Below are positions 1,738 through 30,561 of a DNA stretch of 32,533 nucleotides, in pieces. Within the stretch, counting starts at the first letter, position 1; every line of letters begins with the position of its first letter. Made by a program: the position numbers and the translations under genes. The notes below the pieces were generated by a model. The model did not search any database. It saw nothing but the letters and a program-made list of their open reading frames with translations, and was not told the DNA's origin. The DNA comes from Clostridiales bacterium (GTDB lineage: Bacteria > Bacillota > Clostridia > Caldicoprobacterales > DTU083), in contig DUOI01000029.1 in NCBI GenBank assembly GCA_012838915.1, forward strand, positions 1-32,533, read 5' to 3'.

Positions 1738-3350
1738 TAATGCTCTCCCATGGCCTTTTGTAATCTGAACTGTCTTGGGGAACATCCGGTGTCTTTTTTG
1801 AAAATGCGGCTGAAATAATTAGCATCTACGTAACCGACGAGGCTGCTTATCTCTTTAATGCTTTTACGGCTGTTGAGCAATAATTTCTCAGCTTGTTCTA
1901 TTCGCTTTTTAGTAATATAATCAATGAAATTTACTCCATAATTCTCCTTAAATATTCTGCTTAGATACTGGGGACTTAATCTCACTTCATCGGCAATTTG
2001 GTTTAGTGTAATCTCATTGCTGAAGTTCTTATTAATATAATCAATTACACGACCGATTAATTCGGATTTAACATTTTCTTTGCTCTCAGTATGCTCAATC
2101 AGGTTAAATAAACATCTCTTGCTCCAAACAGCAATCTCGTCAATCTCTTTCAAATTCCCAAGCTCCGTCAGCATGCTGGAATTACAGTATTGATTGAGTT
2201 TTGCTCCACTCATTACCACCGTTCTTTTCAGTACGGTTATTAACTCATTTAGTGATTCCTTAATTACTTCAATATTGTCGTTGTTGTTAATAACCTGAGA
2301 AATAAATTCACAGGCAGCCTCTTTGGCCTCATCAACCTTGCCAAGCTTTACCTGCTCAACAATGAGAGTCTCAAGATCCATAGGATACTCAATATTGGCA
2401 GGTGTAATATGATCTTTCTTAATTCTATTGTAGTGTACAACTCCTCCTGTCTTCAATGCTCTTTTCAGGGCTATATTAGCCTCGCTGTAAGACTTACAAA
2501 AATTATCGAATCCGGCATGTACACTTCCTATTCCAATAGCAGTATCAATCTTGGCAATGGTTTTAATTCGATTTGCCAAACCAATGCCGATTACCTGCGC
2601 TTCCCTCATCAGTATCATTTCTGATTTGTCATTTTTCATTGTATGGAACACTGCAATAGTGCTGCCCATTTTACTGCTGAACAGGCATCTGTTCAGCAGC
2701 AATGGATGACCGGATACTACTTCATATATTCTCTCTCTGATTTTTTTAAAGCTTACCTCCCTGTTTTCCTGCCTTATATAGCTATAAGCCGGTGTAATCA
2801 GCATAAAGAAGCCGGATTCAATATCTTTTTCATTTAACAGCCTTTTATAGCTTTCTATCTTTTCAGCATCAAAATCGCCTGTTATAAAAGCTGATATCAG
2901 CTCATTTTCTATCAGGGGTCTGACCGTTTTTATTTTTTCCTCCACATGAACATTTTGATCAGAATGACGCTCCCTTTTTTCAATTTCATTTATCAGCTTT
3001 CGAATACTCTGTACTACTTCCTCTTCATTGATGGGTTTTAACAAAAAACCCTTTATTCCCAAATCCAAAGCTTCCTTTACATAATTAAATTTGTCATAAG
3101 CAGTGAGGATTAGAATCTGAGTGCTTGGTAACTCATTAAGTATTACTCTGGATGCCTCAAATCCATTCAAGCCAGGCATTCTGATATCCATAACAATGAT
3201 ATCAGGCTTGAGATTTAAACCATACTCTATTGCCTGCCTGCCATTTTCCGGTTCAGCTACTATCTCAATATCAGGAAAGTTCTTTTGTATCAGCGACTTG
3301 ATTACAAATCTGGAAAGAAATTCATCGTCAACTATCATGAGCTTGTGCAT
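1737..3350 (-). CDS. YesN-type response regulator with AraC DNA-binding domain
   Basis: A 537-residue cytoplasmic transcription regulator. The N-terminal receiver domain has the acidic pocket (VDDE, 7-10), phospho-acceptor Asp55 in VMDIRMPG, Thr83 and Lys105 (LLKP). A long middle region (about 120-430) resembles those of other YesN proteins. The C-terminal 100 residues form a double helix-turn-helix AraC/XylS domain (ITLNQIADEV and IKEISSLVGY, ending SPRQFR). The start at 3350 has a GGAGG eight bases upstream and overlaps the end of the preceding gene by 16 bp. It forms a two-component pair with the following kinase, which begins at its stop codon. Proteins of this type usually activate sugar uptake and catabolism genes, so the BMC/transport cluster next door is the likely target; this is inference. 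Confidence 0.92.
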   Translation of the reverse strand: MHKLMIVDDEFLSRFVIKSLIQKNFPDIEIVAEPENGRQAIEYGLNLKPDIIVMDIRMPGLNGFEASRVILNELPSTQILILTAYDKFNYVKEALDLGIKGFLLKPINEEEVVQSIRKLINEIEKRERHSDQNVHVEEKIKTVRPLIENELISAFITGDFDAEKIESYKRLLNEKDIESGFFMLITPAYSYIRQENREVSFKKIRERIYEVVSGHPLLLNRCLFSSKMGSTIAVFHTMKNDKSEMILMREAQVIGIGLANRIKTIAKIDTAIGIGSVHAGFDNFCKSYSEANIALKRALKTGGVVHYNRIKKDHITPANIEYPMDLETLIVEQVKLGKVDEAKEAACEFISQVINNNDNIEVIKESLNELITVLKRTVVMSGAKLNQYCNSSMLTELGNLKEIDEIAVWSKRCLFNLIEHTESKENVKSELIGRVIDYINKNFSNEITLNQIADEVRLSPQYLSRIFKENYGVNFIDYITKKRIEQAEKLLLNSRKSIKEISSLVGYVDANYFSRIFKKDTGCSPRQFRLQKAMGEH

Positions 3351-3802
3351 AAGCGCCCTCCTCGCTTTATAAAGGATTTTCTGTAGAATTCCTTCTCGCT
3401 CTTTACGTCGACTGTGATCTCCAGTAAGATAGTGCGTTCTTTAATTACAACTGAAATATCAATCCGAAAAAAACATTCATATCGGTTAAGCAGGCTGTTA
3501 AAGGTGTTATCAACAAAATTTATTATTGCAAAACGTTCTATAAATATTTCACCATCTGCAGTATCGTGAATGTATATATCAAACCTCTTTCCGTACCTGA
3601 TTTTTTGAATGCCGAAATAATGCCTGAGAGCATTTATTTCTTCGGTTAATAAGACTATATCATCGTCTGTTATCATGTGCTTATAGAATGCATTTAAATC
3701 TGATAAAAGCGTATGGGTTACCTGTGCTTCTTCATGAGAGGCTGTCTGACTGGCATTGACTAATATGATATAAACAAACTCTTCAAATGCCTTTAGTTCC
3801 AT
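3335..3802 (-). CDS. Degenerate histidine-kinase-like small protein
   Basis: A 155-residue soluble protein, first in the regulatory operon. ATG at 3802 follows a clear GGAGGGG. Residues about 45-125 align by eye with the YesM/LytS kinase core encoded two genes downstream: the VTLEDEY...YIQRARFGNRI stretch of the kinase corresponds to VLLTEEI...FGIQKIRYGKRF here, and the N-box LVENAIKHG corresponds to a decayed NFVDNTFNS. The NPHFLFN phospho-acceptor motif and the DNGVGM and glycine-rich ATP-binding boxes are missing. It therefore cannot be an active kinase as read. It could be a regulatory pseudokinase that binds the regulator or kinase, or a decaying remnant; its intact frame, good ribosome site and 16-bp overlap with the response regulator gene favour a functioning protein. 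No established family name is known to me. Confidence 0.65.
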   Translation of the reverse strand: MELKAFEEFVYIILVNASQTASHEEAQVTHTLLSDLNAFYKHMITDDDIVLLTEEINALRHYFGIQKIRYGKRFDIYIHDTADGEIFIERFAIINFVDNTFNSLLNRYECFFRIDISVVIKERTILLEITVDVKSEKEFYRKSFIKRGGRLCTSS

Positions 3803-4025
3803 ATACCCCTCCAGTTGCCCAAAATCAAATTTATCAGGGCCTGTTCATTTAATACAAACAGTTACATTGTATATAAAGCGTATATTAAGCAACAAGGTTA
3901 TTCAGCAAAATTTCAAGGAAGCCGGATAACTCAGCTTGTTCCGTACTATAATGGGTATGTTATTTACCGGGCAAAAATTAGTCATCTTTGCATTTTTAAC
4001 ACGTTATTTTCAAATTGTGTATATT

Positions 4026-4054
4026 ATTATATCATACATACGGTGCTTTCATAA
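4026..4054 (-). promoter_or_regulatory. Candidate sigma-A promoter of the regulatory operon
   Basis: On the minus strand, TATAAT at 4026-4031 is preceded at 17 bp by TTATGA at 4049-4054 (3 of 6 match to TTGACA). It would give a leader of roughly 215 nt before the kinase-like gene at 3802. A perfect 7-bp inverted repeat lies just upstream at 4060-4080. The -10 is perfect and the -35 weak, as expected for an activated or weak promoter. Confidence 0.45.
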
Positions 4055-4059
4055 TAGGA

Positions 4060-4080
4060 TGATTCGCTGAAATCGAATCA
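4060..4080. repeat. Perfect 7-bp inverted repeat upstream of the regulatory promoter
   Basis: TGATTCG (4060-4066) and CGAATCA (4074-4080) flank a 7-base centre. The repeat sits immediately upstream of the -35 region of the candidate regulatory promoter. It could be an operator or a short hairpin; no T-run follows on the minus strand. Confidence 0.5.
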
Positions 4081-4093
4081 GCAATATTTAAGC

Positions 4094-4152
4094 ATATTAG
4101 GGCACAAAGGTTATGGAATATTAAATTGTATCCTAAGCCCCGGCCCTAATAT
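4094..4152 (-). terminator. Long-loop inverted repeat downstream of the iron alcohol dehydrogenase gene
   Basis: ATATTAGGGC at 4094-4103 is the exact reverse complement of GCCCTAATAT at 4143-4152, with a 39-nt interval. The repeat begins 34 bp after the end of the last gene of the BMC cluster. No clear U-tract follows, so it is either a factor-assisted 3' end or RNA-stabilising structure, or an operator pair. The repeat itself is certain; its role is not. Confidence 0.35.
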
Positions 4153-4185
4153 ACGGAATTATATTATGCTTTAATTCAATGAGCT

Positions 4186-5361
4186 CTAGAAAGATGCCCT
4201 GAGGATATTTATGATATCTTCCCTGGTCGGCGTTCTCAGGTCAAGATCAAATGCCCCGCTCATGTACTCGAAGGCTGCATCAGCGATTCTTTCGAGATCT
4301 GCTTCCTCAACTCCCTGCTTACTGAGGGGTATATCCAGTCCAATGTCCTTTATGAGCTTTTCTACCTCCTGGATCGCATCTTCCGGTGTAAATTCACTTA
4401 TTACCTGTTCGCAGGTTTCGTCTCTTAAGAGCAAGCCAATTTTCTTGTATTTTTCCGGATCCTGGTTCATGCTGAATCTCATGGTATGAGGTGTCATGGC
4501 AGCAAGGGTTTCACCGTGGACAGTTCCGCTTATACCTCCCACTGCATGAGACAGACCATGGCATATTGTGTTTATTGCAAGGGACATGGCAAATCCGGCC
4601 AGTGTATCAGCATATGCCATGGCTGAACGGGCTTCCAGGTCATTACCCTCTGTCACGGCTTTTCTTAAATATCTGCCCACCAGTCTGATTGCCTCTTCAG
4701 CATATATGTCGCTCATAGGTGATGCAATTTTACTGGTATACGCCTCGATAGAATGAGCTAAAACATCAAAGCCTGTAGCAGCAGTTATTTCTTTTGGCAT
4801 GGATAACATGAGTTCAGGATCAACTATACCAACCCTGGGATAGATAAAATCGCTGCCCATGCCGGGTTTTTGATCGGTTTCAGGGTTGGTAATTACAGAG
4901 AAGGGTGAGATGTGGCTGCCGGTTCCCGATGTTGTGGTAATTGCAATGATGGGATAGGTTTTGTCAGTGGGCTGTTTTACAACAGGTCCTGCAGGGCAGA
5001 AATCCCATATAGGTTCATTGTGTCCCATTGCAATAGCCATTCCCTTTGCGGCATCAATTGCACTTCCGCCACCCAGGCCAATGACAACTTCGCAGCCGGT
5101 TTTTCGGCCTAATTCTGCGCCGGCATCAATTTCGGTACTCAGTGGATTCGGGCTGACATCATGGTAATATTCGGAGTCAACACCGCTTTCCTTTAAAATA
5201 TTGATTAGTCTGTCCACAAGGCCGATTTCCTTAAAGAACGATCCCGTAGTAACTATTAGGGCCTTGGAACCATATTTAGCTGCATATTTCCCTGCTTCAT
5301 TCAGCTTACCGGCTCCAAACACCACTCTGACCGGTACATAATGATTGAAATCCTTAATCAT
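4186..5361 (-). CDS. Iron-containing (group III) alcohol dehydrogenase
   Basis: A 391-residue enzyme of normal length for the family. The NAD-binding GGGS motif is at 97-100, and the expected metal ligands are Asp199, His203 (DVLAHSIEAY), His268 (CHGLSHAVGG) and His282 (VHGE). A TTTSGTGSH stretch replaces the more usual GTGSE. It reduces an aldehyde to an alcohol with NAD(P)H. In BMCs this enzyme regenerates NAD+ for the aldehyde dehydrogenase, which fits here because the cluster also encodes a CoA-acylating aldehyde dehydrogenase. It is the last gene of the BMC cluster, 41 bp after the SDR gene, with AGGAGG-type spacing before its ATG. The exact substrate (acetaldehyde, propionaldehyde or another) cannot be read from sequence. 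Confidence 0.92.
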   Translation of the reverse strand: MIKDFNHYVPVRVVFGAGKLNEAGKYAAKYGSKALIVTTGSFFKEIGLVDRLINILKESGVDSEYYHDVSPNPLSTEIDAGAELGRKTGCEVVIGLGGGSAIDAAKGMAIAMGHNEPIWDFCPAGPVVKQPTDKTYPIIAITTTSGTGSHISPFSVITNPETDQKPGMGSDFIYPRVGIVDPELMLSMPKEITAATGFDVLAHSIEAYTSKIASPMSDIYAEEAIRLVGRYLRKAVTEGNDLEARSAMAYADTLAGFAMSLAINTICHGLSHAVGGISGTVHGETLAAMTPHTMRFSMNQDPEKYKKIGLLLRDETCEQVISEFTPEDAIQEVEKLIKDIGLDIPLSKQGVEEADLERIADAAFEYMSGAFDLDLRTPTREDIINILRASF

Positions 5362-5402
5362 GCTCCTATCTACCTCCTATGTATTTTTTAATAATTTATT
5401 TT

Positions 5403-6164
5403 CTACCTCATCAGCATTCCGCCGGTTACGTCTATGGTGGCCCCCGTTATATAATCCGCCTTGTCTGATGCAAGAAATGCAACAGTGTAGGCCACTTCCC
5501 TGGGATCGGCAATTCTGCCCAGGGGAATTCTTTTCAGATATTCTTCCTCTCTCTCAGCCAGGGCGTCCTTGTTCATCGGGGTGCGCATCATACCCGGTGC
5601 CACCGCTGTCACATTGATACCATGGGGGGCCACTTCCCTGGCCAGAGATACGGTAAATGTAACAACCCCGCCCTTAGCCGCAGCATAGTGGGCATGGCCG
5701 GATGTAGATCCGTGAAATGCAGCCTGTGAAACAATATTAATGATCTTGCCCCTGGCCTTACGGTTCAACAGATAATTGACTAATCTCTTACTGAACATGA
5801 ATGTACCTGTCAGATTGATTTCAATTACTCTATTCCATTCCTCATCTGACATATCCTTGACATATCTAGTAGGCCATACTCCTGCATTATTTACCAATAT
5901 ATCAATTCTTCCATAGAAGTCGTCAGCTCTTTCAATAATATTATCAATATCCCTGGCATTGGTGATGTCACCATAAAGCGGTATACATCTTGTCCCATAC
6001 TTTTCACTCAGATAATCGGAATATTTGAACACATTTGCTTCATCCACTATATAGTTGATTATCACATTAGCGCCTTCCTGGGTAAGAACTTCACATATAG
6101 CTGCTCCCAGACCGCTTCCGCCCCCTGTTACAATTGCCGTTTTACCTTTCAGATTAAAATCCAT
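5403..6164 (-). CDS. Short-chain dehydrogenase/reductase (SDR1)
   Basis: A 253-residue classical SDR of normal length. It has the TGGGSGLG cofactor motif at 13-20, NNAG at 92-95, and the catalytic residues Ser146, Tyr160 and Lys164 (HYAAAK). A C-terminal TGATIDVTGG is typical of FabG and glucose/sugar-alcohol dehydrogenase subfamilies. It probably oxidises or reduces a hydroxyl of a sugar, polyol or small aldehyde with NAD(P)(H). Its place between the FGGY kinase and the iron alcohol dehydrogenase argues for a step in the same catabolic pathway rather than in fatty acid synthesis. There is no extra terminal helix that would suggest BMC targeting. The start has AAAGGTGG upstream. Confidence 0.88.
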   Translation of the reverse strand: MDFNLKGKTAIVTGGGSGLGAAICEVLTQEGANVIINYIVDEANVFKYSDYLSEKYGTRCIPLYGDITNARDIDNIIERADDFYGRIDILVNNAGVWPTRYVKDMSDEEWNRVIEINLTGTFMFSKRLVNYLLNRKARGKIINIVSQAAFHGSTSGHAHYAAAKGGVVTFTVSLAREVAPHGINVTAVAPGMMRTPMNKDALAEREEEYLKRIPLGRIADPREVAYTVAFLASDKADYITGATIDVTGGMLMR

Positions 6165-6180
6165 GTTCTATCCACCTTTG

Positions 6181-7668
6181 TTAGTTATTGCCTGCCAATT
6201 TTTCTATCAGTTCCTTGAAAGCCTTAAATTTCGATTGATAGATATCAGAGTTTTCTCCGGGATAATAGGTACGTGCCTTTTTTACCATATTGGAAACCGC
6301 AGTTTCAAAATCATTGTATAAGCCTATCGCAATTGCGGAATTGGCCGCAGTTCCCAAAGCCCCTGCCTGAGATGATTCAGTGGTTTCCACCTTAATATTC
6401 AATACATCGGCAAAGATCTGGCACCATACATCGCTGTTGGAAGCACCACCAGACAGCACTGCTTTGCTTCTGATGATTCCTCCCTTTCTTAAATTATCTA
6501 TATGCATTCTGTGGGCAAAAGCCACTCCCTCGAATACAGCCCTGAACATATGAAATATATTATGCTCAGCTCTGATGCCGAAAAAGCCGGCATTCACTCC
6601 TTCTGCCAGATAACAATCGTGGAGAAATGGCAAATAGAAAATATTTAATTCTTCAGGTTTAAGTTTTTCTACTTCGATATCTATAGCTTTGTATAATTCG
6701 CCTTTATCTGATACCGGGCTTCCAAACCCGGTTGTCATGTTGTCTGCCAGCCATTCCAGGTTAACTGCAGAAGTAGCGCTGGACTCAACATATATATAGT
6801 TTGTTCCATCTGCAAATAATGAACATTTTGTATTGGAGTCACAATTAACAATATCCTTCTCAATACCGGAGTTTATGTTCCAGGTACCTGCAATCATACT
6901 GTACAGGCTGTCATCGTATACACCGCTGCCCAAAGCACAGGATACCACATCAAATAATCCTGCAGTTACAGGCGTACCTTCAACCAGCCCCGTTTGTGCA
7001 GCTGCCTCGCCGGTTACGTATCCTATTACCTCTGAGCTGCCGCTCAAGGGTGCCAGCTTCTCATACATTTCCTCGATGCCGTATATGCTGAGAATTTCCT
7101 TGTCATAGCTGCATGTTCTAAGGTTAATCAGGCCTGAATTGCTGGCATCCGTATATTCACAGGTACTGCATCCGGTAAGTTTGTATTTGATCCAGTCCTT
7201 AACTGACAGAATTTTATGTATTTGATTATACCGGTCATAGTCATTGATTTTCAGCCATCTTAGTATGGGAATCGCCTGGCCGGCCCAAACCGGATGCAAT
7301 GTCATGTCATAAGCAGTGATATTCTCATCCTGCCAGCCTTTTACAATACCAGATGATCTGTTGTCCATTGAGGTGACAGCCATACCAAGAGGCTGATCCT
7401 CTCTGTCAAGGAGATAGAGTCCTGCTCCATGGCCGGTACCGCCTATTGCAACAATCTGCAAAGGGCTGATCCCTGCTTTTTTTATTACATCGCTAATGCA
7501 CTTTGCAGTTCTTGCCCATTGCTCATTCATATCAATCTCAGAGAAAGCACCGCGGTTTATTACAGGAGTTTGTTGCAGAGAGGATTGGATTTGCCTGCCA
7601 TCGATGTGAAACAGCACTGCTTTCGTGGCTGTAAGCCCATTATCAATGCTAAGCAGATATTTACCCAT
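6181..7668 (-). CDS. FGGY-family carbohydrate kinase, L-xylulokinase-like
   Basis: A 495-residue ATP-dependent sugar kinase. The N-terminal phosphate-binding turn reads IDNGLTATKA (8-17). The catalytic Asp is Asp240 in AGLFDVVSCAL, followed by GTWNINSG at 261-268, and the second actin-like domain has LSGGASNSDVW. From memory it is closest to E. coli LyxK (L-xylulose kinase) in the LFDVVS, GTW, NLEW and FLPFL stretches and in overall length (498 in LyxK). Erythritol and AI-2 kinases are more distant alternatives. It would phosphorylate the imported sugar or a keto derivative made by the cluster's dehydrogenases. That is odd for a deoxyribose-type BMC, where a ribokinase-family kinase would be expected, so the true substrate is open. 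GGTGGG precedes the ATG. Confidence 0.9.
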   Translation of the reverse strand: MGKYLLSIDNGLTATKAVLFHIDGRQIQSSLQQTPVINRGAFSEIDMNEQWARTAKCISDVIKKAGISPLQIVAIGGTGHGAGLYLLDREDQPLGMAVTSMDNRSSGIVKGWQDENITAYDMTLHPVWAGQAIPILRWLKINDYDRYNQIHKILSVKDWIKYKLTGCSTCEYTDASNSGLINLRTCSYDKEILSIYGIEEMYEKLAPLSGSSEVIGYVTGEAAAQTGLVEGTPVTAGLFDVVSCALGSGVYDDSLYSMIAGTWNINSGIEKDIVNCDSNTKCSLFADGTNYIYVESSATSAVNLEWLADNMTTGFGSPVSDKGELYKAIDIEVEKLKPEELNIFYLPFLHDCYLAEGVNAGFFGIRAEHNIFHMFRAVFEGVAFAHRMHIDNLRKGGIIRSKAVLSGGASNSDVWCQIFADVLNIKVETTESSQAGALGTAANSAIAIGLYNDFETAVSNMVKKARTYYPGENSDIYQSKFKAFKELIEKLAGNN

Positions 7669-7697
7669 AATATCCCACCAATACGCCCAATTTTCTA

Positions 7698-8006
7698 TTA
7701 TTCAACGATACAGTTCATTCTTTCAAGACAGGTCTTTACAATAGCAGTCATTTCATCCTTATTCACAGGCATATTACACGCCTTCATTTGCTTTACTATA
7801 CAATCAATCGTAGTATTAAGTAACCTGGTTTTTCCCTGTTCTTCTTCTGTTCCTTCCAAGCTCAGATCGTCTCCCATTACAATACGGATGCCATGCTCAT
7901 AGGCCCAATCCCGTGCAGATGGGGTTATTATCATATCCTTTGAAAGGACCAGCTGCTTTTTATCTCCCATGCCTGCAATGTCATTTAAGGTTATAACCTT
8001 AGACAC
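7698..8006 (-). CDS. Stand-alone EutQ N-terminal-domain-like BMC protein
   Basis: A small protein of 102 residues. It begins with a segment like VITLNDI, then a beta-rich run leading to IITPSARDWAYEHGIRI (26-42), and ends with a helical tail of about 40 residues. This closely parallels the N-terminal part of EutQ from ethanolamine operons (LITANDIR, then IITPEAREVADLLGF, then a helix), but the C-terminal cupin domain of EutQ is absent. The same ITP-ARD motif lies at the C-terminus of the PduL encoded just upstream. The start is set at GTG 8006, because AGGAG lies 8 bases upstream; a GTG three codons earlier would sit directly on the ribosome site. Function is unknown; a scaffolding or enzyme-docking role in the compartment is inference. 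Confidence 0.72.
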   Translation of the reverse strand: MSKVITLNDIAGMGDKKQLVLSKDMIITPSARDWAYEHGIRIVMGDDLSLEGTEEEQGKTRLLNTTIDCIVKQMKACNMPVNKDEMTAIVKTCLERMNCIVE

Positions 8007-8024
8007 ATTTACCACTCCTAAAGG

Positions 8025-8873
8025 TTATTTCAAATATATCACCTTAATGCCTTTCTCTTTAATGATGTCTCTAGCCAGCGGAGTTATGATTCCCCCAGGC
8101 TTTATATATAGATTATCCAGCGCATTTTTAGCAGCTTCTTCCGTAACCAATGTCAGACCTTTTTTGCTCTCATTCCGTATAGGATAACCGGAATCCGTAT
8201 CGTCCGCCCCAGGTGCTGCACAGTAGACTCCTCTGTCTACTATGCTGACAAGGTCACCCTGTTTTAACCCTGCCGCATTAGCCTCTTCAAAGTCTATGTG
8301 GAATTCCAATGCATAGTTCTTATTTACCCTGACTGCTACCTGATCAAATATAAGACCGCGTTCACCGGCAGCCCTTACCTGAACAATATCACCGTCCTGA
8401 ACCTGAAAGAACGCTGCATCCTCCGGCGTCATATGAATATGTCGTTTTGCAACTATTACTCCCCCATCCAATTGAACCGAACCATTGGAACCTATAATTG
8501 TCAAGCCCGAAGTTCCCTGAATGTCACCGGATTCTCTGATATCGGCTGAGACTCCCAACTTATATGCATCACTTACGGATATCTCAGCCTGGGTCTGTCC
8601 CCTTGCAGGACCGAGTACTCTCACCCTCTCTATAGAGCCTTTGGGTCCTGCAAGAATAACAGTTTCAGCGGCAACAAACTGACCCGGTTGAGATAAATCC
8701 CTGTACTTGGTCAAACCATTGGTGAAAAGCATATTTGCATGTACTTCCGACAAATGGACATGACGATTTGATACCCCCGTAGGGATTAAGTGGCGCCTCG
8801 GGGCAGAAGAATTTGTCCTCATCAGCTCAGCAGCAACTCTGGCTGCTATACTCTTAATCAAGTCCTGCTCCAA
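8025..8873 (-). CDS. pduL: PduL-type phosphate acyltransferase with extra C-terminal domain
   Basis: A 282-residue BMC phosphotransacylase converting acyl-CoA plus phosphate to acyl-phosphate plus CoA. Both PduL repeats are present: SNRHVHLS with His38 and His40, and AKRHIHM with His145 and His147, plus His192 in FHIDFEEANA; these are the expected zinc-site histidines. An amphipathic N-terminal helix (residues 2-20) looks like an encapsulation peptide. PduL proteins usually end near 210-220 residues; this one continues with a segment (about 240-282) containing IITPLARDIIKEKGIKV, similar to the EutQ-N-like protein encoded next. Translation appears to begin at TTG 8873, preceded by AGGTGG at 7 bases; the first in-frame ATG would remove the targeting helix. 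It acts downstream of the aldehyde dehydrogenase in the lumen. Confidence 0.9.
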   Translation of the reverse strand: MEQDLIKSIAARVAAELMRTNSSAPRRHLIPTGVSNRHVHLSEVHANMLFTNGLTKYRDLSQPGQFVAAETVILAGPKGSIERVRVLGPARGQTQAEISVSDAYKLGVSADIRESGDIQGTSGLTIIGSNGSVQLDGGVIVAKRHIHMTPEDAAFFQVQDGDIVQVRAAGERGLIFDQVAVRVNKNYALEFHIDFEEANAAGLKQGDLVSIVDRGVYCAAPGADDTDSGYPIRNESKKGLTLVTEEAAKNALDNLYIKPGGIITPLARDIIKEKGIKVIYLK

Positions 8874-8908
8874 TTGGTATCACCACCTGTATAATTAAAT
8901 CAATCGCA

Positions 8909-9184
8909 TTACTTGTAGCCGGGAAGTATGGTCTCAACCTCTGCATGAGGACGGGGAATTACATGTACGGACTTAAGCTCTCCTACCCGATCTGCTGCTG
9001 CAGCCCCTGCATCAGTTGCTGCTTTCACAGCGCCCACATCGCCTCTTACCATAACTGTTACATACCCGCCTCCAATGACTTCCTTGCCAATAAGATGTAC
9101 ATTTGCAGCCTTTACCATCGCATCTGCTGCTTCAATAGCCCCTACCAAACCTTTTGTTTCTACCATTCCCAATGCATTTTCCAT
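8909..9184 (-). CDS. BMC-H shell protein (hexamer-forming), copy 1
   Basis: A 91-residue single-BMC-domain protein of the PduA/EutM type. It forms the hexagonal tiles of the microcompartment facets. It carries the family signatures [28 protein letters not shown] and VHVIPRPH. The pore loop reads KEVIGGGY. It is nearly identical to the neighbour at 9224-9532, apart from the pore loop, a few positions and the tail. The start is set at the second ATG (9184), which has GGAGG 8 bases upstream and matches the start of copy 2; the ATG two codons earlier is only 2 bases from the ribosome site. It lies between the copy 2 gene and pduL. Confidence 0.95.
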
Positions 9185-9223
9185 TTTCATTGCCTCCCTT
9201 TATTCGTTTCGTCTGATTAAGCT

Positions 9224-9532
9224 TTATGCCTTGCCGGCACCGCTTTTTTGGATTTTCTCCTGCTTGCCCCCGGGAATAATCCCTTCCACTTCACCGTGGG
9301 GACGAGGTATAACATGAACTGAGATCAGCTCTCCCACACGTTTGGCTGCTTCCGATCCGGCTTCCGTTGCCGCCTTTACAGCACCTACGTCACCTCTCAC
9401 CATAACTGTTACCAGGCCGCCGCCGGATCTTTCCTTACCAATCAGATGTACATTTGCAGCTTTAACCATTGCATCTGCCGCCTCGATTGCGCCAACCAGC
9501 CCCCTGGTTTCAATCATTCCTAAAGCATCCAT
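9224..9532 (-). CDS. BMC-H shell protein (hexamer-forming), copy 2
   Basis: A 102-residue BMC-H protein with the same core as copy 1 ([20 protein letters not shown] is shared exactly). The pore loop is KERSGGGL, so the hexamer pore should be lined by different side chains from copy 1. The C-terminus has an extra Lys/Gly-rich tail ([15 protein letters not shown]). A strong AGGAGGT precedes the ATG, consistent with high expression of a major shell protein. It follows the aldehyde dehydrogenase gene after a 99-bp gap that may hold a regulatory site. The high identity of the pair points to a recent tandem duplication that then diverged at the pore. Confidence 0.95.
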
Positions 9533-9631
9533 GTTGTTTTTGACCTCCTAATCATTTAATGTAGATAATAATTTGCAGATTGCTATAACAACCCATCACA
9601 GGTGAATAATTATACATATACGGCATATTGC
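9533..9631 (-). promoter_or_regulatory. 99-bp gap with possible regulatory motif before the BMC-H pair
   Basis: This is the largest gap between the aldolase gene at 15814 and the end of the cluster. On the minus strand it carries TTGTTATAGCAAT (from 9591 downwards), which shares TTGTTATAG with the promoter region of the upstream aldolase gene (16676-16686). A TATAAT lies nearer the aldehyde dehydrogenase end (near 9610) without a good -35. An internal promoter boosting shell protein synthesis is plausible but not shown. Confidence 0.3.
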
Positions 9632-11053
9632 TTACACAGCACTTAAATACCTGGCAACAGCCTTCTCAATCTCCTCGATGGTATAGTGATAACAGGAAGA
9701 GATTGTATTTGAATAGGCTAATCGCTTTTTATTAATCAAGTGCTGCGGCCCGACATTATCCGCTGTTACATTTCCACCCCACGATCCACATCCAAGGGTT
9801 AAGGAGGGCTGCAGATTGGTGGTAAACCCTATTGCACCCTGTGATGACGGAGTATTTACCAATATTCTGAAAACTGGCTTCTTCATCGCAAATTCCATAA
9901 TGATATTTCTATCGTTGGAATGTATGGCCAAACTGTGACCCAGCCCCCCATAATTCAGCAGCTCGATGCACCTGTCACATGAACTCTGCCAGTCTTCCTC
10001 AATATAGAAAGCCAGAACAGGACAGAGCTTCTCTGCCGAAAGTGGATATGATCTGCCTACACCAAACATACGAGCTATAAGAATCCTGGTATTGTCAGGA
10101 ACCGCTATGCCTGCTATTTTTGCAACCTCTGCAGCGCTTTTCCCGACAACCTCCGGATTTACACCTCCACCCCGGAGAATAACGGCTTTCTCAACATGGA
10201 AAATCTCCTCCGGTGAAAGAAAGTAACAACCGTTGGCTTTAAAGGCTTCAATTACCTTGTCAGAAATCACTTTTTCAGTTACAACAGCCTGTTCTGATGC
10301 ACATATGGTACCATTGTCAAAGGTTTTGCTGGCAATGATATCACAAACTGCCCGATCAATATCAGCACTTCTTTCAATAAAAGCAGGTACATTGCCAGGA
10401 CCCACTCCGAACGCGGGTTTGCCTGAGCTGTAAGCGGCTTTGACCAGGGCTGAGCCTCCGGTAGCCAGGATTACTGCTGTCATAGGGCTTTGCATAAGCT
10501 CCTGTGTGGCCTCCCGGGTACAATTTTCAATACAGGATACAACACCTTCCGGAGCACCGGCGGACACAGCAGCCTCCTCCATGATACGGGCGGCTTCCCT
10601 TGAACACTTAATAGCCCTTGGATGAGGAGACATAACGATACTGCAACGAGCCTTCACAGCAATAATGGCTTTGAATATTATAGTAGAAGTAGGATTAGTG
10701 GTGGGAATTATACCGGCTATTACCCCCATTGGCTCTGCTATTTCAATAATGCCTTTTTCTCTGTCCTCTGATATGACACCTGCAGTCCGCATATTTTTTA
10801 TGTATTCCCAAACATTTTTGCTGGCAAATTCATTTTTTACTACCTTATCAGCTACAACGCCGATTCCAGTTTCATTGACAGCCATATCTGCCAGCCTGGC
10901 AGCATTTTTGTAGCCTGCTTCAGCCATTGCCTCCGCTATTGAGTCAATTTTTTCCTGAGTAAAACCGGCCAGCACTTTTTGAGCCTGTTTTGCTCTTTTT
11001 AACAGGTCCCTGGTTTGCTGAATGGACAAAATATCTTTATCTAAATAATCCAT
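9632..11053 (-). CDS. CoA-acylating aldehyde dehydrogenase of the microcompartment
   Basis: A 473-residue enzyme of the EutE/PduP type. It oxidises a short aldehyde to acyl-CoA with NAD+ and CoA. The catalytic Cys251 lies in [12 protein letters not shown], and the nucleotide/CoA regions IPTTNPTST and [23 protein letters not shown] match acetaldehyde/propionaldehyde dehydrogenases. The C-terminus ends with an amphipathic helix ([17 protein letters not shown]) after a polar linker, which looks like a C-terminal encapsulation peptide. It is encoded 13 bp after the canonical DeoC aldolase, matching a channel from retro-aldol cleavage to aldehyde oxidation. Product acyl-CoA would go to PduL. Acetaldehyde is the expected substrate if DeoC has its usual activity. 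Confidence 0.95.
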
Positions 11054-11066
11054 TTAAACTCACATC

Positions 11067-11843
11067 CTAATAGCTGGATTTTGCTGCTGCCAGCTGTGGT
11101 GAGATGCCTTTTACGATGGCAATTCCGGAGCTGGTGCCAAGCCGGGTAGCACCTGCTTTTATAAGCCTATCAGCATCTTCTCTTGTCTTAATGCCGGTTG
11201 AAGCTTTAACCTCCATCGTGGATCCTACCGTCTTTTTCATAAGTGCTATATCCTCAGGAGTTGCTTCACCTACGGACATACCGGTACAGGTTTTGACAAA
11301 ATCCGCTCCGGCATTCTTAGCAAGAAGACAAGCTTTGATCTTTTCTTCCTCAGTCAATAAACCGGTCTCAATAATAACTTTTACCTTTGCACGTCCTGCG
11401 GCTGCATCCACTACCGCTTTGATGTCACTGGATACCAGATCATAGTCTCTGTCCTTGAGTGCGCCGATATTAATCACCATGTCCACTTCCTGAGCACCAT
11501 TGGCCAATGCATCCCGCACCTCTGCCGCCTTAACAAAGGACGTGTTGGCCCCCAGTGGAAATCCTATTACCGTGCATACCTTTACACTGCTTCCTTTTAA
11601 CAGCTCAGCTACGTACTTTACATGGGTTGGATTTACACATACGGAAGCAAACCCATATTCCTTTGCCTCTCTGCAAAACTTTTCTATGGTAGCTCTGGTA
11701 GTATCCGGCCTTAAAACGGTATGATCCACATATTTTGCGTATTCAGCGTTGTAACCTGACTGCATTCTGCCTGAATCCGGCGATTTGTTCAGCTCTTTCA
11801 TAACCTCGCGGGTTATTTCTTCAATCAAATGGTTTATATCCAT
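11067..11843 (-). CDS. deoC: Deoxyribose-phosphate aldolase (DeoC), canonical copy
   Basis: A 258-residue class I aldolase that cleaves 2-deoxy-D-ribose 5-phosphate to glyceraldehyde 3-phosphate and acetaldehyde. All key residues are present: [10 protein letters not shown] near the N-terminus, Asp121 (EVDMV), Schiff-base Lys184 in FVKTCTG, proton-relay Lys213 in [10 protein letters not shown], and the phosphate-binding GTSSG near 236-240. Compared with ordinary DeoC it has an extra N-terminal amphipathic helix (residues 2-19) joined by a polar linker, typical of an encapsulation peptide. It is encoded between the BMC-P genes and the aldehyde dehydrogenase gene, so its acetaldehyde would be released in the compartment. 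It is the likely signature enzyme of this BMC. Confidence 0.93.
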
Positions 11844-11849
11844 TCATTT

Positions 11850-12164
11850 TCACCTTCCCTGCATAGTATCAAATAAATATAGGGATCCCTGGGTTGTGAT
11901 AACCTCATCCACTACACCGGCAATAACGGTATCAACAGGTGTATTGGGGTCCTCTGCCTTAATGACCTGTCTGGCAGAACGTCCCTCTGCAATTGCTATC
12001 ACGAGATCTCCTATACCACTTCCGACAGCATCGACAGCCAGCAGTTCGGAACCCGCCGGGTTGCCCTTCAGGTCTATTGGCTGTATCAGCATCAACTTTT
12101 TCCCAGAAAGATGAGGGTTTTTCTGGGTGGCAACAACATTTCCGATCACCCTGGCCAGAATCAT
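11850..12164 (-). CDS. BMC-P (EutN/CcmL) vertex protein 1
   Basis: A 104-residue pentamer-forming shell protein that caps the vertices of the compartment. It has the family pattern ARVIGNVVAT at the N-terminus, LMLIQPID, AVDAVGSGIGD, GRSARQ and PVDTVIAGVVD. The ribosome site GGGAGG overlaps the last codons of the preceding BMC-P gene, whose stop is two bases before this ATG, so the two are translationally coupled. The canonical deoC follows 6 bp downstream. It is the third of three consecutive BMC-P genes in transcription order. Confidence 0.93.
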   Translation of the reverse strand: MILARVIGNVVATQKNPHLSGKKLMLIQPIDLKGNPAGSELLAVDAVGSGIGDLVIAIAEGRSARQVIKAEDPNTPVDTVIAGVVDEVITTQGSLYLFDTMQGR

Positions 12165-12166
12165 TA

Positions 12167-12451
12167 TTATCCTCCCTCGTCTGTTATAGGCACATGGATA
12201 GAATCAATTATGCCGATTATCCCTGCATCTACACAGGCATTTGGTTGGGGTAGCGGCATTGCACCTTCCCTGCTCCGGGCATAAAATATGGTCTCTCCAT
12301 ATCCGGCCCCTATTGAATCGGCTGCTACTATAGGCGAGCCTTTGTCTTCACCCCTGCTGTTAATGGGCTGAATAACCAGCAGCTTAACTCCCACCAACCG
12401 TTCATCCTTATCTGTGGCAACAACACTTCCGATAACTCTGGCGAGATGCAT
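12167..12451 (-). CDS. BMC-P (EutN/CcmL) vertex protein 2, divergent
   Basis: A 94-residue BMC-P protein with HLARVIGSVVAT, LLVIQPIN, AADSIGAGYGE and VDAGIIGIID. It lacks the GSSAR-type motif seen in its two neighbours, having ARSREGAMPLPQP in that region instead. The start is set at ATG 12451, which shares its A with the stop of the upstream BMC-P gene (TAATG) and has CAGGGG upstream; a longer in-frame extension would overlap that gene. The divergence suggests a specialised pentamer, perhaps at a different vertex position or with a different partner. Confidence 0.9.
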   Translation of the reverse strand: MHLARVIGSVVATDKDERLVGVKLLVIQPINSRGEDKGSPIVAADSIGAGYGETIFYARSREGAMPLPQPNACVDAGIIGIIDSIHVPITDEGG

Positions 12452-12762
12452 TATACCCCTGCCTTCCATTTATGCTTGTCATATATCTTGTTGCCCTCAA
12501 TGTCGATATAGTCAACAATTGCCATAATCACTGCATCAACCGGCGTATTATTGGTCAAATGGGTCTGTCTCGCAGAGCTTCCGCCAACCACCAGTACAAT
12601 CTCCGACTCACCCGCTCCCACCGTATCTATGGCCACAGCAGGCTTCCCTTCATCCTCAAGATTAAGAAGGTTTACAGGCTGTACCACCTGCATTTTTCTA
12701 CCGCTTAGTTTCTCATCCTTGGTGGTACACACAACCGTTCCTATTACCCTGGCTGCATACAT
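12451..12762 (-). CDS. BMC-P (EutN/CcmL) vertex protein 3
   Basis: A 103-residue pentameric shell protein with AARVIGTVVCT, MQVVQPVNLL, IDTVGAGESE, GGSSARQ and PVDAVIMAIVD, all typical of EutN/CcmL/PduN. A short Lys/Trp-containing tail (YDKHKWKAGV) extends beyond the usual fold. AAGGAGG precedes the ATG and overlaps the end of the 2-hydroxyacid dehydrogenase gene 2 bp upstream. It is the first of three tandem BMC-P genes in transcription order. Confidence 0.93.
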   Translation of the reverse strand: MYAARVIGTVVCTTKDEKLSGRKMQVVQPVNLLNLEDEGKPAVAIDTVGAGESEIVLVVGGSSARQTHLTNNTPVDAVIMAIVDYIDIEGNKIYDKHKWKAGV

Positions 12763-12764
12763 TG

Positions 12765-13859
12765 CTATGCCTCCTTGTCAAACTTCTTTTGTTCAAACCG
12801 AAAAAACTGTCTTTTTATGAAGTCATTAAACAGTTCTTTGTTAATCAGATTTCCGGACGGCTTTCCCTCCCAAATCTTTGCTATTTCAGCAGCAAGCTTC
12901 CTGGGAGAATTCAGAAATGCATCGCTGGATCCTCCGGCCATGTGAGGAGTAATTGTTACATTATCAAGCTTAACAAGGGGATAATCGATACCGGGAGGCT
13001 CCACATCAAATACATCCAATGCAGCCCCGGCCAGTCTGCCCTCTTTCAATGCCCGGTACAGGGCTTTTTCATCCACTAATGCAGATCTGGATGTATTGAT
13101 TAGATATGAGGCAGGTTTCATTAAACTAATGAGTTCAGTGTTTATCATTCTTTCGGTTTCCTTGGTGAGTCTTGCGTGAATTGTAACAAAATCAGACTCT
13201 CTCATTAGCTCCTCTAAGGGCACCAGGCTGATATAATCAGGGACTTTCTTGGCATAGGGGTCATAACCGATAATTTTCATATCAAAGCCTGTCAGCCTTT
13301 TTGCAACCTTCAAGCCAATCTCCCCCAGGCCTACAATGCCGACTGTTTTCCCAGGTAAATCCGGTATGTAAGAAGAATTCGGATACTCTCTTATCCATAT
13401 TCCTTCCTTCAAGCCCAAATGACCTCTGGCAATATTTCTACATTCAGCTATCATCATCCCTACGGTGAAGTCGGCAACTGCATCAGCATTTCTGCCCGGA
13501 GTATTGTAAACAAGTATTCCTTTCCGGCTTGCATAATCCACATTTATATTCTCATACCCCGCTCTAAGCACCCCTATTACCTTCAGGTTTTTACATCTGT
13601 CAATCATCTTGCTGTTAACGGTACAGAATTGCGTTATTATTATGTCAGCATCCTCAACTGCATCAAATATGTATTCCGGAGGCTCATAAGCTTCACTGCC
13701 CCCATTTTCAACCAGCAGGTTTATGTTTTGAAGCTCAGTAAAATCCTTCAATTCCCAATCGATTACATTTACATCAACACCCAGGCTGTCCAACGGCTGA
13801 AATCCGTTTTTAATATAATCCTTGGGAATAAACAAATCCCCTATGCCCACCAATTTCAT
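12765..13859 (-). CDS. D-isomer-specific 2-hydroxyacid dehydrogenase
   Basis: A 364-residue NAD-dependent enzyme of the SerA/glyoxylate reductase superfamily. The nucleotide-binding GLGEIG is at 177-182, with Asp200 after the second strand indicating NAD(H). The catalytic Arg258 (NTSRSAL), Glu287 (DVFDVEPP) and His306 (TPHMAGG) are all in place. It lacks the C-terminal ACT domain of serine-pathway SerA. It interconverts a 2-hydroxyacid and a 2-oxoacid, but no obvious hydroxyacid step exists in a DeoC-based pathway. Its tight packing between the zinc dehydrogenase and the BMC-P genes argues for a pathway role, such as handling glyoxylate, hydroxypyruvate or a sugar acid. The specific substrate is unknown. 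AAGGGGGTGA precedes the ATG. Confidence 0.88.
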   Translation of the reverse strand: MKLVGIGDLFIPKDYIKNGFQPLDSLGVDVNVIDWELKDFTELQNINLLVENGGSEAYEPPEYIFDAVEDADIIITQFCTVNSKMIDRCKNLKVIGVLRAGYENINVDYASRKGILVYNTPGRNADAVADFTVGMMIAECRNIARGHLGLKEGIWIREYPNSSYIPDLPGKTVGIVGLGEIGLKVAKRLTGFDMKIIGYDPYAKKVPDYISLVPLEELMRESDFVTIHARLTKETERMINTELISLMKPASYLINTSRSALVDEKALYRALKEGRLAGAALDVFDVEPPGIDYPLVKLDNVTITPHMAGGSSDAFLNSPRKLAAEIAKIWEGKPSGNLINKELFNDFIKRQFFRFEQKKFDKEA

Positions 13860-13871
13860 ATCTTCACCCCC

Positions 13872-14921
13872 TTACGGTACAAGTACAACCTTAACAGCAC
13901 TGCCTTCTTTAATAATATCCATTGCCTTATGGAATTCAGTCATAGAAAGCTTATGGGTAACAAGAGGTCTGTAGGCATCCGGATTCTTTCTAAGCATACT
14001 GACTGCTTCTTTGACATGTTCTGCTGTAGAGTCTGATGTGCCGTATGCAATGAGCTCATTGTAATGCAGGGTCCGGCTGTTTATATTGATAAACTCATCC
14101 CCTACGGGAAGGCTGGCAAAGTATGATACGTAACCTCCCTTTTTAGCATATTTCATTGCATTACTTTGAACCTGATTGCTGGGAGCAGTTATAACTACCA
14201 AATCAAAGCCTTCACCTTGTGACAGGTCCAGGCAGGCATTGTCAATATTAGCCGGATCTACAACAGTAAAGCCCATTTCCCGTGCCATTTGCGCTCTTCT
14301 GCCTGGAAATTCCACACAGCTGACATCTTCTACACCCTTTTGCCTGAGGGTTACAGCATGCAGCATTCCCAGCGGCCCCAAACCCAGCACCAGTGCTGAG
14401 CCGATTTTTTCTATTGGAACCCGGCCCAGACCGTTTACTACACAGGATAAGGGTTCACCCAATGCAGCCAGGTCGCTGTCCAGTTCGCCGACATCAACCA
14501 GATGTCCCTGCCTTACAGCCTTGGCAGGTATTTTTACATAAGCTGCCATGGCACCGGGATAATGAAAACCTATTGCCTCAGCGCTTCTGCATAGATTGGT
14601 TCTGCCCTGATTGCAATATATACAATCACCGCAGCCTATGGTTGTGGCCATGGTTACCCTCTGGCCCACTTTATACCCGTTTGCATTACTTCCAACCTCT
14701 ATGATTTCACCACAAAACTCATGACCCATTATCATAGGAGGCTTAATCCTTGGATTGCCCTTCAGATAGGATTTTATATCAGTACCACAGATGGCACAGG
14801 CTTCCACCTTTATTGTTACCTCACCGTCGCCCGTGCTCTCTATAGGCTTCATTTCTTCTATTCTTACATCCCCCGGTGCATAATAGACCACACTATTGCC
14901 TGCACCTGCATTATTGGCCAT
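13872..14921 (-). CDS. Zinc-dependent medium-chain alcohol/polyol dehydrogenase
   Basis: A 349-residue MDR-family dehydrogenase resembling sorbitol and threonine dehydrogenases. The catalytic zinc residues are Cys45 (CAICGTD), His67 and Glu68 (GHEF); the structural zinc cysteines are Cys97, Cys100, Cys103 and Cys111; the cofactor motif GLGPLG follows in the second half. It probably oxidises a secondary alcohol of a polyol or sugar to a ketone, which would produce a substrate for the ketose-type FGGY kinase. It is encoded 2 bp after an SDR gene and 12 bp before the 2-hydroxyacid dehydrogenase gene. No encapsulation peptide is visible. The substrate is inferred only from context. Confidence 0.9.
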   Translation of the reverse strand: MANNAGAGNSVVYYAPGDVRIEEMKPIESTGDGEVTIKVEACAICGTDIKSYLKGNPRIKPPMIMGHEFCGEIIEVGSNANGYKVGQRVTMATTIGCGDCIYCNQGRTNLCRSAEAIGFHYPGAMAAYVKIPAKAVRQGHLVDVGELDSDLAALGEPLSCVVNGLGRVPIEKIGSALVLGLGPLGMLHAVTLRQKGVEDVSCVEFPGRRAQMAREMGFTVVDPANIDNACLDLSQGEGFDLVVITAPSNQVQSNAMKYAKKGGYVSYFASLPVGDEFININSRTLHYNELIAYGTSDSTAEHVKEAVSMLRKNPDAYRPLVTHKLSMTEFHKAMDIIKEGSAVKVVLVP

Positions 14922-14923
14922 TA

Positions 14924-15703
14924 TCAGTGCATCTCCCTTCCGCCGGTTATATTAAAGGCCTGGCCTGTGCAATAATCGCCGCTTACGGTTAAGAAGTGAA
15001 CAAATTCTACTACATCCTGGATAGAAGTGAGCCTTTTGAGCGGTATCTTGGCGGTAAACTTTTTAATAACCTCTTCTCTGGGCAGTTTAAGGTTGTGAAT
15101 ATAGCCCTTGCTTACCTCGCCCCAAACACCGGTTTCATCAGTGATTCCGGGGCATACACAATTCACGTTGATTTTATGCTCAGCCAATTCATATGCAAGT
15201 GCCTGGGTCAGGGCAATAATAGCCCCCTTGGCAGCTGAATAATGGACCATCAGAGCTGAGCCTGTCTTGCCGGACTTTGATGAGAAATTAATAATCTTAC
15301 CTGCCTTGTTTTCCTTCATGCCGCGGATAGCACCCTGGGTACAAAACAGAGTACCGCTTACATTGACCCGCATCTGCCTGTCCATCTGCTCTGCTGTTAT
15401 CTCTTCAAACGGCCTTTGGTCAACGATGCCTGCATTGTTCACCAATGCATATACCGGGCCTAATTCATTATATATTTCATCAAATACCTTATGTACTGCA
15501 TCACGATCTGTTACATCCAAAACATACGCTTTTACATCATGTCCTTCGGATGCCAGACGCTCTGCCTGTTTTTCCACCTCTGGGTTGATATCAATCATTA
15601 CCACCCTTGCACCGTCCTGACAATACCTCTCTGCAACAGCCAAACCTATGCTTCTTGCTGCTCCCGTTACTACACACACCTTCTTCTCCAAACATGTTGC
15701 CAT
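14924..15703 (-). CDS. Short-chain dehydrogenase/reductase (SDR2)
   Basis: A 259-residue classical SDR. The cofactor motif TGAARSIG is at 13-20, Asp38 after the second strand suggests NAD preference, NNAG is at 89-92, and Tyr155 and Lys159 (HYSAAK) with Ser141/Ser142 form the active site. The end TGQAFNITGG is typical of sugar and polyol SDRs such as sorbitol-6-phosphate or 2-deoxy-gluconate dehydrogenases. The start is set at ATG 15703, which has GGGGAGGGG just upstream; an upstream GTG would add 25 unlikely residues. It shows no close similarity to SDR1 beyond the family motifs, so the two probably act on different hydroxyls. It lies after the divergent aldolase gene and is coupled to the zinc dehydrogenase. 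Confidence 0.9.
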   Translation of the reverse strand: MATCLEKKVCVVTGAARSIGLAVAERYCQDGARVVMIDINPEVEKQAERLASEGHDVKAYVLDVTDRDAVHKVFDEIYNELGPVYALVNNAGIVDQRPFEEITAEQMDRQMRVNVSGTLFCTQGAIRGMKENKAGKIINFSSKSGKTGSALMVHYSAAKGAIIALTQALAYELAEHKINVNCVCPGITDETGVWGEVSKGYIHNLKLPREEVIKKFTAKIPLKRLTSIQDVVEFVHFLTVSGDYCTGQAFNITGGREMH

Positions 15704-15813
15704 TACAAACCCCTCCCCTGTATAAATTAAAATAATCCTTATATTATTATTAGTGTGATTTATGCCATAACAAGACACTTGTCAAGGTATTTCAATTTTC
15801 AAATCCATATGCT

Positions 15814-16611
15814 TCAGCCGAATGTAACAATTTTCACTGATCTGCTTGCACCGATCCTGTTGGCGCCTGCTTCAATCACTTTCACTGCAGCCTCATGGTT
15901 CCTGATACCGCCATCGGCTTTAATACCGATGTTGCTGCCTACTGCAGCTCTGATCATCTTAATGTCTTCCTGGGTTACTCCATCCGGTTTGGAACCGGCG
16001 GCAACCTTTAAAAAGGGGGCACCGGACATCTGTGCAATCAGGGCGATTTTTATTTGCTCTTCACGGGTTAACTGTCCCAGATCAACCACAACCTTGATTA
16101 GCGCCCTTTGGCCGGCTGCTTCCAGTACAGATTTAATTTCTCTGCTTATTGATTGAACATCGTCGGATTTGAGCATGCCTATATTGATGGGTAAGTCGAT
16201 TTCAACACCACCAAGATTAATTATTTCCAGGGTTTCTTCAACCTTCATCCTGGTGGTTGTATTACCGTAAGGAAATGAAACTGCGGACGAGGTTTTTACA
16301 CCTGTACCTTTAAGCAGCTCTGCTGCCATTTTAACAAAGCAAACCGGCACACTGACATTTACAAAACCATACCGTACAGCCTCGGCACAAAACTGCTCAA
16401 CCATTGCTGCGGTGGCATTGGGTATGATCATAGAATGCTCCAGGACCTTGGCTAGTTTTTTGTCATAACTGTTTGCGTCATGGGTTATATATCTGCCTGA
16501 TGAATTGAAGGTTCTATTTTTGGTTTTTATATAGTTGTCTATAACTTCCCTGACAATTGAATTGATTCGATTGATGTTCAAATCATCATTTATTCTCGAT
16601 GGTGCACCCAA
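15814..16611 (-). CDS. Divergent DeoC-family aldolase (paralogue)
   Basis: A DeoC-fold protein of 265 residues, counted from TTG 16611. This start is chosen because a purine-rich AGGGGGAGGGGAAGG lies just upstream; the ATG at 16641 would make that ribosome site coding and lies inside a promoter repeat. The catalytic Asp139 (VEIDL), Schiff-base Lys202 (FLKVAAG) and Lys231 (IKADGGIR) remain. However, the DHT-LKPD motif has become LEHSMIIPN, the VCVNP loop is VSVPV, KTCTG is KVAAG, and the phosphate-binding GTSSG is GASRS. A helical N-terminal extension (NRINSIVREVIDNYIKT) may be an encapsulation peptide. It probably has aldolase chemistry on a different substrate, or an accessory role. It has its own promoter. 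Confidence 0.82.
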   Translation of the reverse strand: MGAPSRINDDLNINRINSIVREVIDNYIKTKNRTFNSSGRYITHDANSYDKKLAKVLEHSMIIPNATAAMVEQFCAEAVRYGFVNVSVPVCFVKMAAELLKGTGVKTSSAVSFPYGNTTTRMKVEETLEIINLGGVEIDLPINIGMLKSDDVQSISREIKSVLEAAGQRALIKVVVDLGQLTREEQIKIALIAQMSGAPFLKVAAGSKPDGVTQEDIKMIRAAVGSNIGIKADGGIRNHEAAVKVIEAGANRIGASRSVKIVTFG

Positions 16612-16638
16612 TATCCTTCCCCTCCCCCTAATTGCAAA

Positions 16639-16684
16639 CATTTTCTATAACTTTTGTTAGCATGATTATTACATATTCTATAAC
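16639..16684 (-). promoter_or_regulatory. Direct-repeat candidate operator at the aldolase promoter
   Basis: Two near-identical 13-mers (GTTATAGAATATG at 16672-16684 and GTTATAGAAAATG at 16639-16651, 12 of 13 matches) lie in the same orientation 33 bp apart, about three helical turns. The first fills the promoter spacer and the second covers the expected transcription start. AraC-family regulators such as YesN-type proteins commonly bind direct repeats on one DNA face. A third partial copy (AAGTTATAGA) occurs at 16539-16548 inside the gene. Confidence 0.4.
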
Positions 16685-16693
16685 AAATGTCAA
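16666..16693 (-). promoter_or_regulatory. Internal sigma-A promoter upstream of the divergent aldolase gene
   Basis: On the minus strand, a perfect TTGACA at 16688-16693 is followed after 16 bp by TAATAA at 16666-16671 (or AATAAT at 17 bp). It sits in the 112-bp gap after the second permease gene. Transcription from here would express the enzymes and shell without the importer. The predicted start near 16657 lies very close to ATG 16641, which further favours translation from TTG 16611. Confidence 0.65.
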
Positions 16694-16754
16694 CAATAAT
16701 TTTTGAAAACTAAGAAAATTTAAACAGGCATATTGAGCAGATAAATTACAAGAG

Positions 16755-17762: not shown

Positions 17763-17773
17763 TTATCCTGTAT

Positions 17774-18805: not shown

Positions 18806-18807
18806 TG

Positions 18808-20292: not shown

Positions 20293-20330
20293 TGTATCAG
20301 TTCTCCCATCAACTCATTAATGCGGAAACA

Positions 20331-20404
20331 GGCAGCCTCAAAATATAGATGCAAAGCCTATATATAAATATAGATGCAAAGCCTATATATTATATTGAGA
20401 CTGC
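20331..20404 (-). repeat. Intercistronic stem-loop containing a 25-bp tandem duplication
   Basis: Between the binding-protein gene and the ATPase gene, GGCAGCCTCA (20331-20340) pairs with TGAGACTGCC (20395-20404) at 9 of 10 positions. Inside are two exact copies of a 25-bp unit at 20341-20365 and 20366-20390, each with its own ATATAG/CTATAT inverted repeat. The RNA should fold into a long compound hairpin. Such elements after binding-protein genes (as in malE-malF) stabilise the upstream mRNA or limit read-through, giving excess binding protein. The structure is visible; that role is inferred. Confidence 0.7.
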
Positions 20405-20451
20405 CTTCCCCTAAATTCCTATATCAATTTTCCCTTCAAACTATTCTGATA

Positions 20452-30408: not shown

Positions 30409-30420
30409 CTTTATAAAGCA

Positions 30421-30537: not shown

Positions 30538-30561
30538 TTACGATATTCAGTTAGCGTATTT

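Follow-up and report, generated by a model that had tools for sequence, protein, structure and literature searches.

In the window, the whole 32,533-nucleotide stretch of DNA analysed here, the gene ahead of a yesN–yesM two-component pair, a sugar-sensing switch adjacent to a microcompartment operon, encodes a 155-residue LytS/YesM-type protein that has lost nearly all of the catalytic motifs of a histidine kinase and kept its structural core. We propose, with a probability of roughly 0.4, that this small protein is a non-catalytic DHp-type accessory that docks the response regulator YesN and buffers or restrains it. If this reading is right, the protein would represent a pseudo-histidine kinase reduced to a soluble minimum, a hairpin with half an ATPase domain whose synthesis is probably coupled to that of its response regulator, and would show how two-component systems acquire non-catalytic adaptors. 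Both pseudo-histidine kinases and hairpin phosphotransferases that do without ATP have been described; the open-access papers searched contain no free-standing LytS-type core that lacks His and lid and is probably coupled to yesN.

A LytS/YesM-type core without catalytic motifs

By its sequence, the small protein is a real member of the LytS/YesM type. It matches the Pfam family PF06580 (His_kinase) with an E value of 6e-9 and 36.5 bits, above the curated cut-off of 25.2 bits, and residues 9–74 align on profile positions 14–81; the window's own YesM matches the same family at E 7.5e-30. Pairwise BLASTP between the small protein and this YesM gives 27% identity over 66 residues (E 8e-4), and phmmer returns a weak match to the GanS kinase domain (6swj; E 0.003) that spans residues 9–130. 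The original prediction had placed the homology between the phospho-acceptor helix and the N box. It in fact extends from the phospho-acceptor region through a degenerate N box to the former G1 strand at about residue 135, somewhat further than predicted.

Unlike LytS/YesM kinases, the small protein has no sensor, membrane or HAMP part, no phospho-acceptor His, no G1 or G2 box and no lid. Alignment to about 50 kinase cores places Glu8 at the phospho-acceptor His position, and QINP, the Asn of the FLFN motif and the QP ahead of the N box are all lost. The N box itself reads VDNTFNSLL compared with VENAIKHGL, with only N99 kept exactly, the neighbouring Glu changed to Asp, and the H and G gone. 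Further on, D-x-G-x-G (G1) is lost and the chain stops before G2, with the ATP lid and later glycine boxes absent, and Pfam detects no HATPase domain in the small protein. The missing phospho-acceptor His and the missing ATP-binding glycine boxes had both been noted in the original prediction, and both absences are confirmed here. Judged from these residues, the small protein cannot autophosphorylate or carry out His phosphotransfer.

The losses are concentrated in catalytic positions. Among near-invariant kinase columns, 13 of 15 in catalytic motifs are lost compared with 1 of 11 others (Fisher p 1.7e-4, or 6e-4 with the deletion counted once), the split into motif and non-motif columns having been made after the alignment had been seen. 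Structural invariants are retained at E55, Y62, I65, R69, F9, L14 and V97, and 35 of 37 hydrophobic core columns are still hydrophobic, where the background rate is 0.47 (p 7e-10).

Predicted fold and structural relatives

AlphaFold, supplied with a ten-sequence alignment, models the small protein with a pLDDT of 84.6 and a pTM of 0.79. The model has helices at residues 3–22, 26–43 and 52–73, an N-box helix at 92–107 and strands to residue 153, with neither a lid nor a last helix; the aligned sequences are kinases that give almost no support beyond about residue 135. A model of the small protein alone, computed without an alignment, reached a low-confidence pLDDT of 52.5 and was set aside. The top Foldseek match of the retained model is GanS (E 9e-7), and a second structure comparison returns GanS at Z 11.6 over 147 residues, Spo0B at Z 8.7 and ChpT-type phosphotransferases at Z 8.2–8.6; the RetS kinase region is also among the structure matches (Z 9.1). 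The small protein is accordingly predicted to be a helical hairpin followed by a lid-less half ATPase domain, as in GanS, Spo0B and ChpT. Together with the PF06580 match and the alignment, this predicted fold upholds the earlier description of a soluble, catalytically empty LytS/YesM-type protein.

GanS (6swj and 6swk), a LytS/YesM-type kinase domain composed of PF06580 and HATPase, is the best structural match and resembles the small protein in its hairpin and half CA fold as well as in homology across residues 9–130. Spo0B and ChpT resemble it as soluble hairpins with a degenerate ATPase-like domain in which ATP is not used. The AlphaFold model has this layout, at Z scores that are middling and from a model built on a kinase alignment. 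However, Spo0B and ChpT keep their His and relay phosphate, and their Pfam families have no match in the small protein. A role as a Spo0B/ChpT-type phosphotransferase that passes phosphate to YesN is therefore highly improbable, even though the fold class is the same and a His-bearing short LytS-derived protein does occur in the phosphorelay-like locus of two other genomes (G558 and G797, described below): Glu8 at the acceptor position already contradicts it, and no lone receiver gene lies nearby. With a kinase fold that is kept by prediction and an acceptor His that is absent, the small protein instead has the make-up of a pseudo-histidine kinase.

Gene arrangement and translation signals

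The small gene begins with ATG, with ctGGAGGGGtatATG ahead of the start, and its Shine–Dalgarno sequence GGAGGGG is strong and lies 4 bases before the ATG, in agreement with the strong ribosome site of the original prediction (Table 1). The gene order is small gene, yesN, yesM, and the overlap with the regulator gene, also anticipated, amounts to 16 nt. The last ten codons of the small gene cross the yesN ribosome site and pass the yesN start. Because the small-gene 3′ end thus carries both the ribosome site and the start codon of yesN, the two genes are probably translationally coupled. Codon usage in the frame of the small gene is coding-like (0.097 per codon compared with −0.014 and −0.080 in the other frames), with a synonymous-codon z of 2.3 and a coding signal weaker than in the long neighbouring genes.

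Table 1 Features of the small gene and its surroundings in the window
Feature	Position	Strand	Basis
Small gene: 155-residue non-catalytic LytS/YesM-type protein, predicted DHp-like hairpin (His to Glu8) and lid-less half CA domain	3335–3802	−	PF06580; alignment and column test; AlphaFold; structure matches
Shine–Dalgarno region of small gene, ctggaggggtat	3803–3815	−	Direct reading
Small-gene 3′ end: holds yesN ribosome site GAGGAGGG and start codon; encodes tail KRGGRLCTSS	3335–3366	−	Direct reading
YesN-type response regulator: receiver and AraC HTH, 537 residues	1737–3350	−	Pfam
YesM-type sensor kinase: HAMP, His_kinase and HATPase, 519 residues, intact catalytic motifs	226–1785	−	Pfam; motifs read
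Intergenic region from FeADH (last microcompartment gene) to small gene	3816–4185		Frame reading; promoter and Rfam searches
Microcompartment and sugar-uptake operon: FeADH, SDR, FGGY kinase, PduL-like, BMC-H/-P shell, aldehyde dehydrogenase, two DeoC, ABC sugar transporter and binding protein	4186–21732	−	ORFs; orthologous loci in G022 and G178

All three minus-strand frames of the 370-base region upstream of the small gene are closed, and this region therefore contains no lost kinase N-terminus; reading its frames revealed no other remnant either. Promoter-like matches in the region are near chance level, and a search of Rfam returned no match there. An assembly or binning artefact, in which a chimeric contig fuses a kinase fragment to yesN, deserves mention since the source genome is a MAG in 149 draft contigs with 4% estimated contamination. 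Such a fusion is very hard to reconcile with a small open reading frame that has its own Shine–Dalgarno sequence and start and ends exactly across the yesN start, and with kinase sequence that continues on neither side, and we regard it as extremely unlikely.

Distribution and probable maintenance of the small gene

No ortholog of the small protein, and no homologue of similar length beside yesN or yesM genes, turned up in searches at the level of the order (30 genomes), the class (391) and the phylum (398) or in a scan of GTDB contigs. The closest yesN–yesM pair, in G178, is 38% and 43% identical to that of the window and stands without the small gene. The original prediction had called the protein conserved, and these results speak against that. 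Among PF06580 matches in the 30 genomes of the order, the window's is the only open frame that is short and free of both stops and motifs; the remaining small entries are a truncated kinase (L006) and an 89-residue piece with a stop. Queries of the class and phylum genomes with the small protein retrieved full-length or contig-cut kinases with one exception, the short protein of G558. When 273 genomes of the class were searched with a profile, the matches listed included no open frame of comparable length. The original prediction had named two refuting outcomes, and neither was seen: the relatives have no frameshifted homologues and no full-length kinase at this position, homologues being absent from the genomes searched.

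Beyond these genomes, the GTDB contig scan with YesN returned only distant regulators, and viral contigs queried with the small protein, YesN and YesM yielded nothing. Plasmids gave two matches of ~30% identity; one carries a histidine-kinase annotation and the other lies on a record without annotation. On the samples covered here, the small gene was either gained in the lineage of the window or persists nowhere else. In a tree of 85 transmitter cores its branch is 7.3 changes per column long and cannot be placed.

The small gene could be a nonfunctional remnant, or a mere leader on which translating ribosomes expose the start of yesN while the protein stays idle, as the lack of an ortholog in several hundred related genomes, the yesN Shine–Dalgarno sequence inside the small-gene 3′ end and the orthologous G178 pair that does without the small gene would each fit. 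We nevertheless consider this rather unlikely, as the frame is intact, with no stops or frameshifts despite near-total motif loss, and core columns are retained. Simulated neutral decay of the corresponding segment of the window's YesM, run until 10 of 13 motif residues had changed, gave 30% identity and a mean of 5.0 stops, with a probability of no stop of 0.011 before indels are considered. A truncated LytS-type kinase of the same family illustrates the opposite pattern. This 177-residue fragment (L006:321-854 in G012), which is followed by an HTH-type regulator gene, has its His, N box and G1 intact (motifs PHF, ENSLNHG and DDGIGM). It is probably a recent remnant and, as a truncated kinase with intact catalytic motifs, was rejected as a second case of the short protein.

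The intact frame and retained core therefore argue that the small gene was maintained after catalytic loss, with its open reading frame probably kept by selection. The gene is known from one genome, and we infer this selection from these features rather than from dN/dS. Overall, the small protein looks like a working accessory rather than debris.

Proposed function

Docking on YesN is the most plausible role for the small protein because it is probably co-translated with YesN, is soluble and has kept its hairpin core. Starting from the supported fold and catalytic loss, we infer that the protein dimerizes, which partner it has and in which direction it acts. Two copies would pair through a four-helix bundle of their hairpins, and the dimer would dock the YesN receiver by presenting an inactive copy of YesM's output surface; by analogy with the pseudokinase DivL, this docking would buffer or restrain YesN. 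YesN docking is not visible in the sequence, however: a by-eye reading of the alignment gives six putative receiver-docking positions downstream of the His, and one of them carries the same residue in the small protein and YesM.

The original prediction suggested that the protein might hold, inhibit or scaffold the sensor complex, which it conceivably could. One such route, the leading alternative within the accessory reading, is dimerization with the YesM kinase core into inactive mixed dimers that set the sensor threshold; we judge it unlikely. RetS is thought to form inactive mixed dimers with GacS, its kinase region is among the structural matches of the small protein, and the DHp hairpin retains its hydrophobic face. 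However, YesM is a membrane protein with a HAMP domain and dimer contacts of its own, whereas the small protein has no membrane or HAMP segment and is only 27% identical to YesM over their 66 aligned residues.

The preferred reading, a non-catalytic accessory of YesN, has a precedent in DivL, a Caulobacter pseudo-histidine kinase that binds a response regulator without catalysis (PMC4211667). Like the small protein, DivL has a kinase core in which the acceptor His is replaced; unlike it, DivL is large, contains PAS domains and a full CA domain, and belongs to a different kinase subfamily. In the XylFII–LytS–YesN and CuaDSR systems, a third gene beside a yesM/yesN-type pair tunes sugar sensing (PMC10384115). 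The third component of these systems is an extracellular solute-binding protein, whereas the small protein is a cytoplasmic kinase relic.

Short His-bearing LytS-derived proteins

The exception among the class and phylum matches, in G558 (L184), is a 146-residue PF06580 protein that keeps its His and has the same end point and a similarly ruined N box and G1 as the small protein. An ortholog occurs in G797 (L207), a member of another family, with 68% identity and NG86 estimates of dN 0.19 and dS 0.84. The two genomes share a gene order (L185:10444-14170 in G558 and L207:7722-13573 in G797) of HisKA kinase, LytTR regulator, lone CheY-like receiver, short protein and giant secreted protein, and the locus looks like a Spo0F/Spo0B-style phosphorelay in which the LytS-derived short protein, with its His and without an ATP site, serves as the Spo0B-like transferase.

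These short proteins cover the same kinase span as the small protein, have lost everything after G1 and stand beside response regulators. They differ from it in keeping the His, in being conserved across two families and in having a HisKA kinase, a LytTR regulator and a lone receiver as neighbours. Pairwise BLASTP links the two kinds of protein at E 2e-9. The nearest full-length relatives of the G558/G797 protein are kinases of its own order, which it resembles more than it does the small protein, and the small protein is closer to kinases than to the short protein; the two therefore probably arose independently, a point that the tree does not settle. The nearness of the small protein to the G558/G797 proteins at the tree root may be long-branch attraction. 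The His-bearing counterparts suggest that small signalling parts have arisen repeatedly from LytS-type kinases. A broader and rather doubtful generalization is that LytS/YesM kinases repeatedly shed sensor, lid and catalytic boxes to become free 150-residue adaptors, acting as phosphotransferases where the His is kept (G558 and G797) and as co-translated response-regulator buffers where it is lost (the window).

Genomic neighbourhood

The gene names of the adjacent microcompartment and sugar-uptake operon are presumed from homology. A tie of the small gene to the microcompartment was considered and rejected, as the orthologous loci in G022 and G178 lack the small gene and have a different regulator at that end. 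In G022, a yesM and a yesN-like gene that belong to the locus itself flank a 99-residue ORF near the binding protein (L146:16959-19951). The aldolases of the window's microcompartment locus are the two DeoC-like proteins; in G178, a pair of related FGGY/ABC/DeoC clusters occupies adjacent positions (L147 and L148).

Elsewhere in the window, adjacent small genes at 23427–24039 resemble, by eye only, a HEPN/nucleotidyltransferase (HepT/MntA-like) pair. A SAM riboswitch (Rfam RF00162) lies at 30420–30538, upstream of an S-adenosylmethionine synthetase gene.
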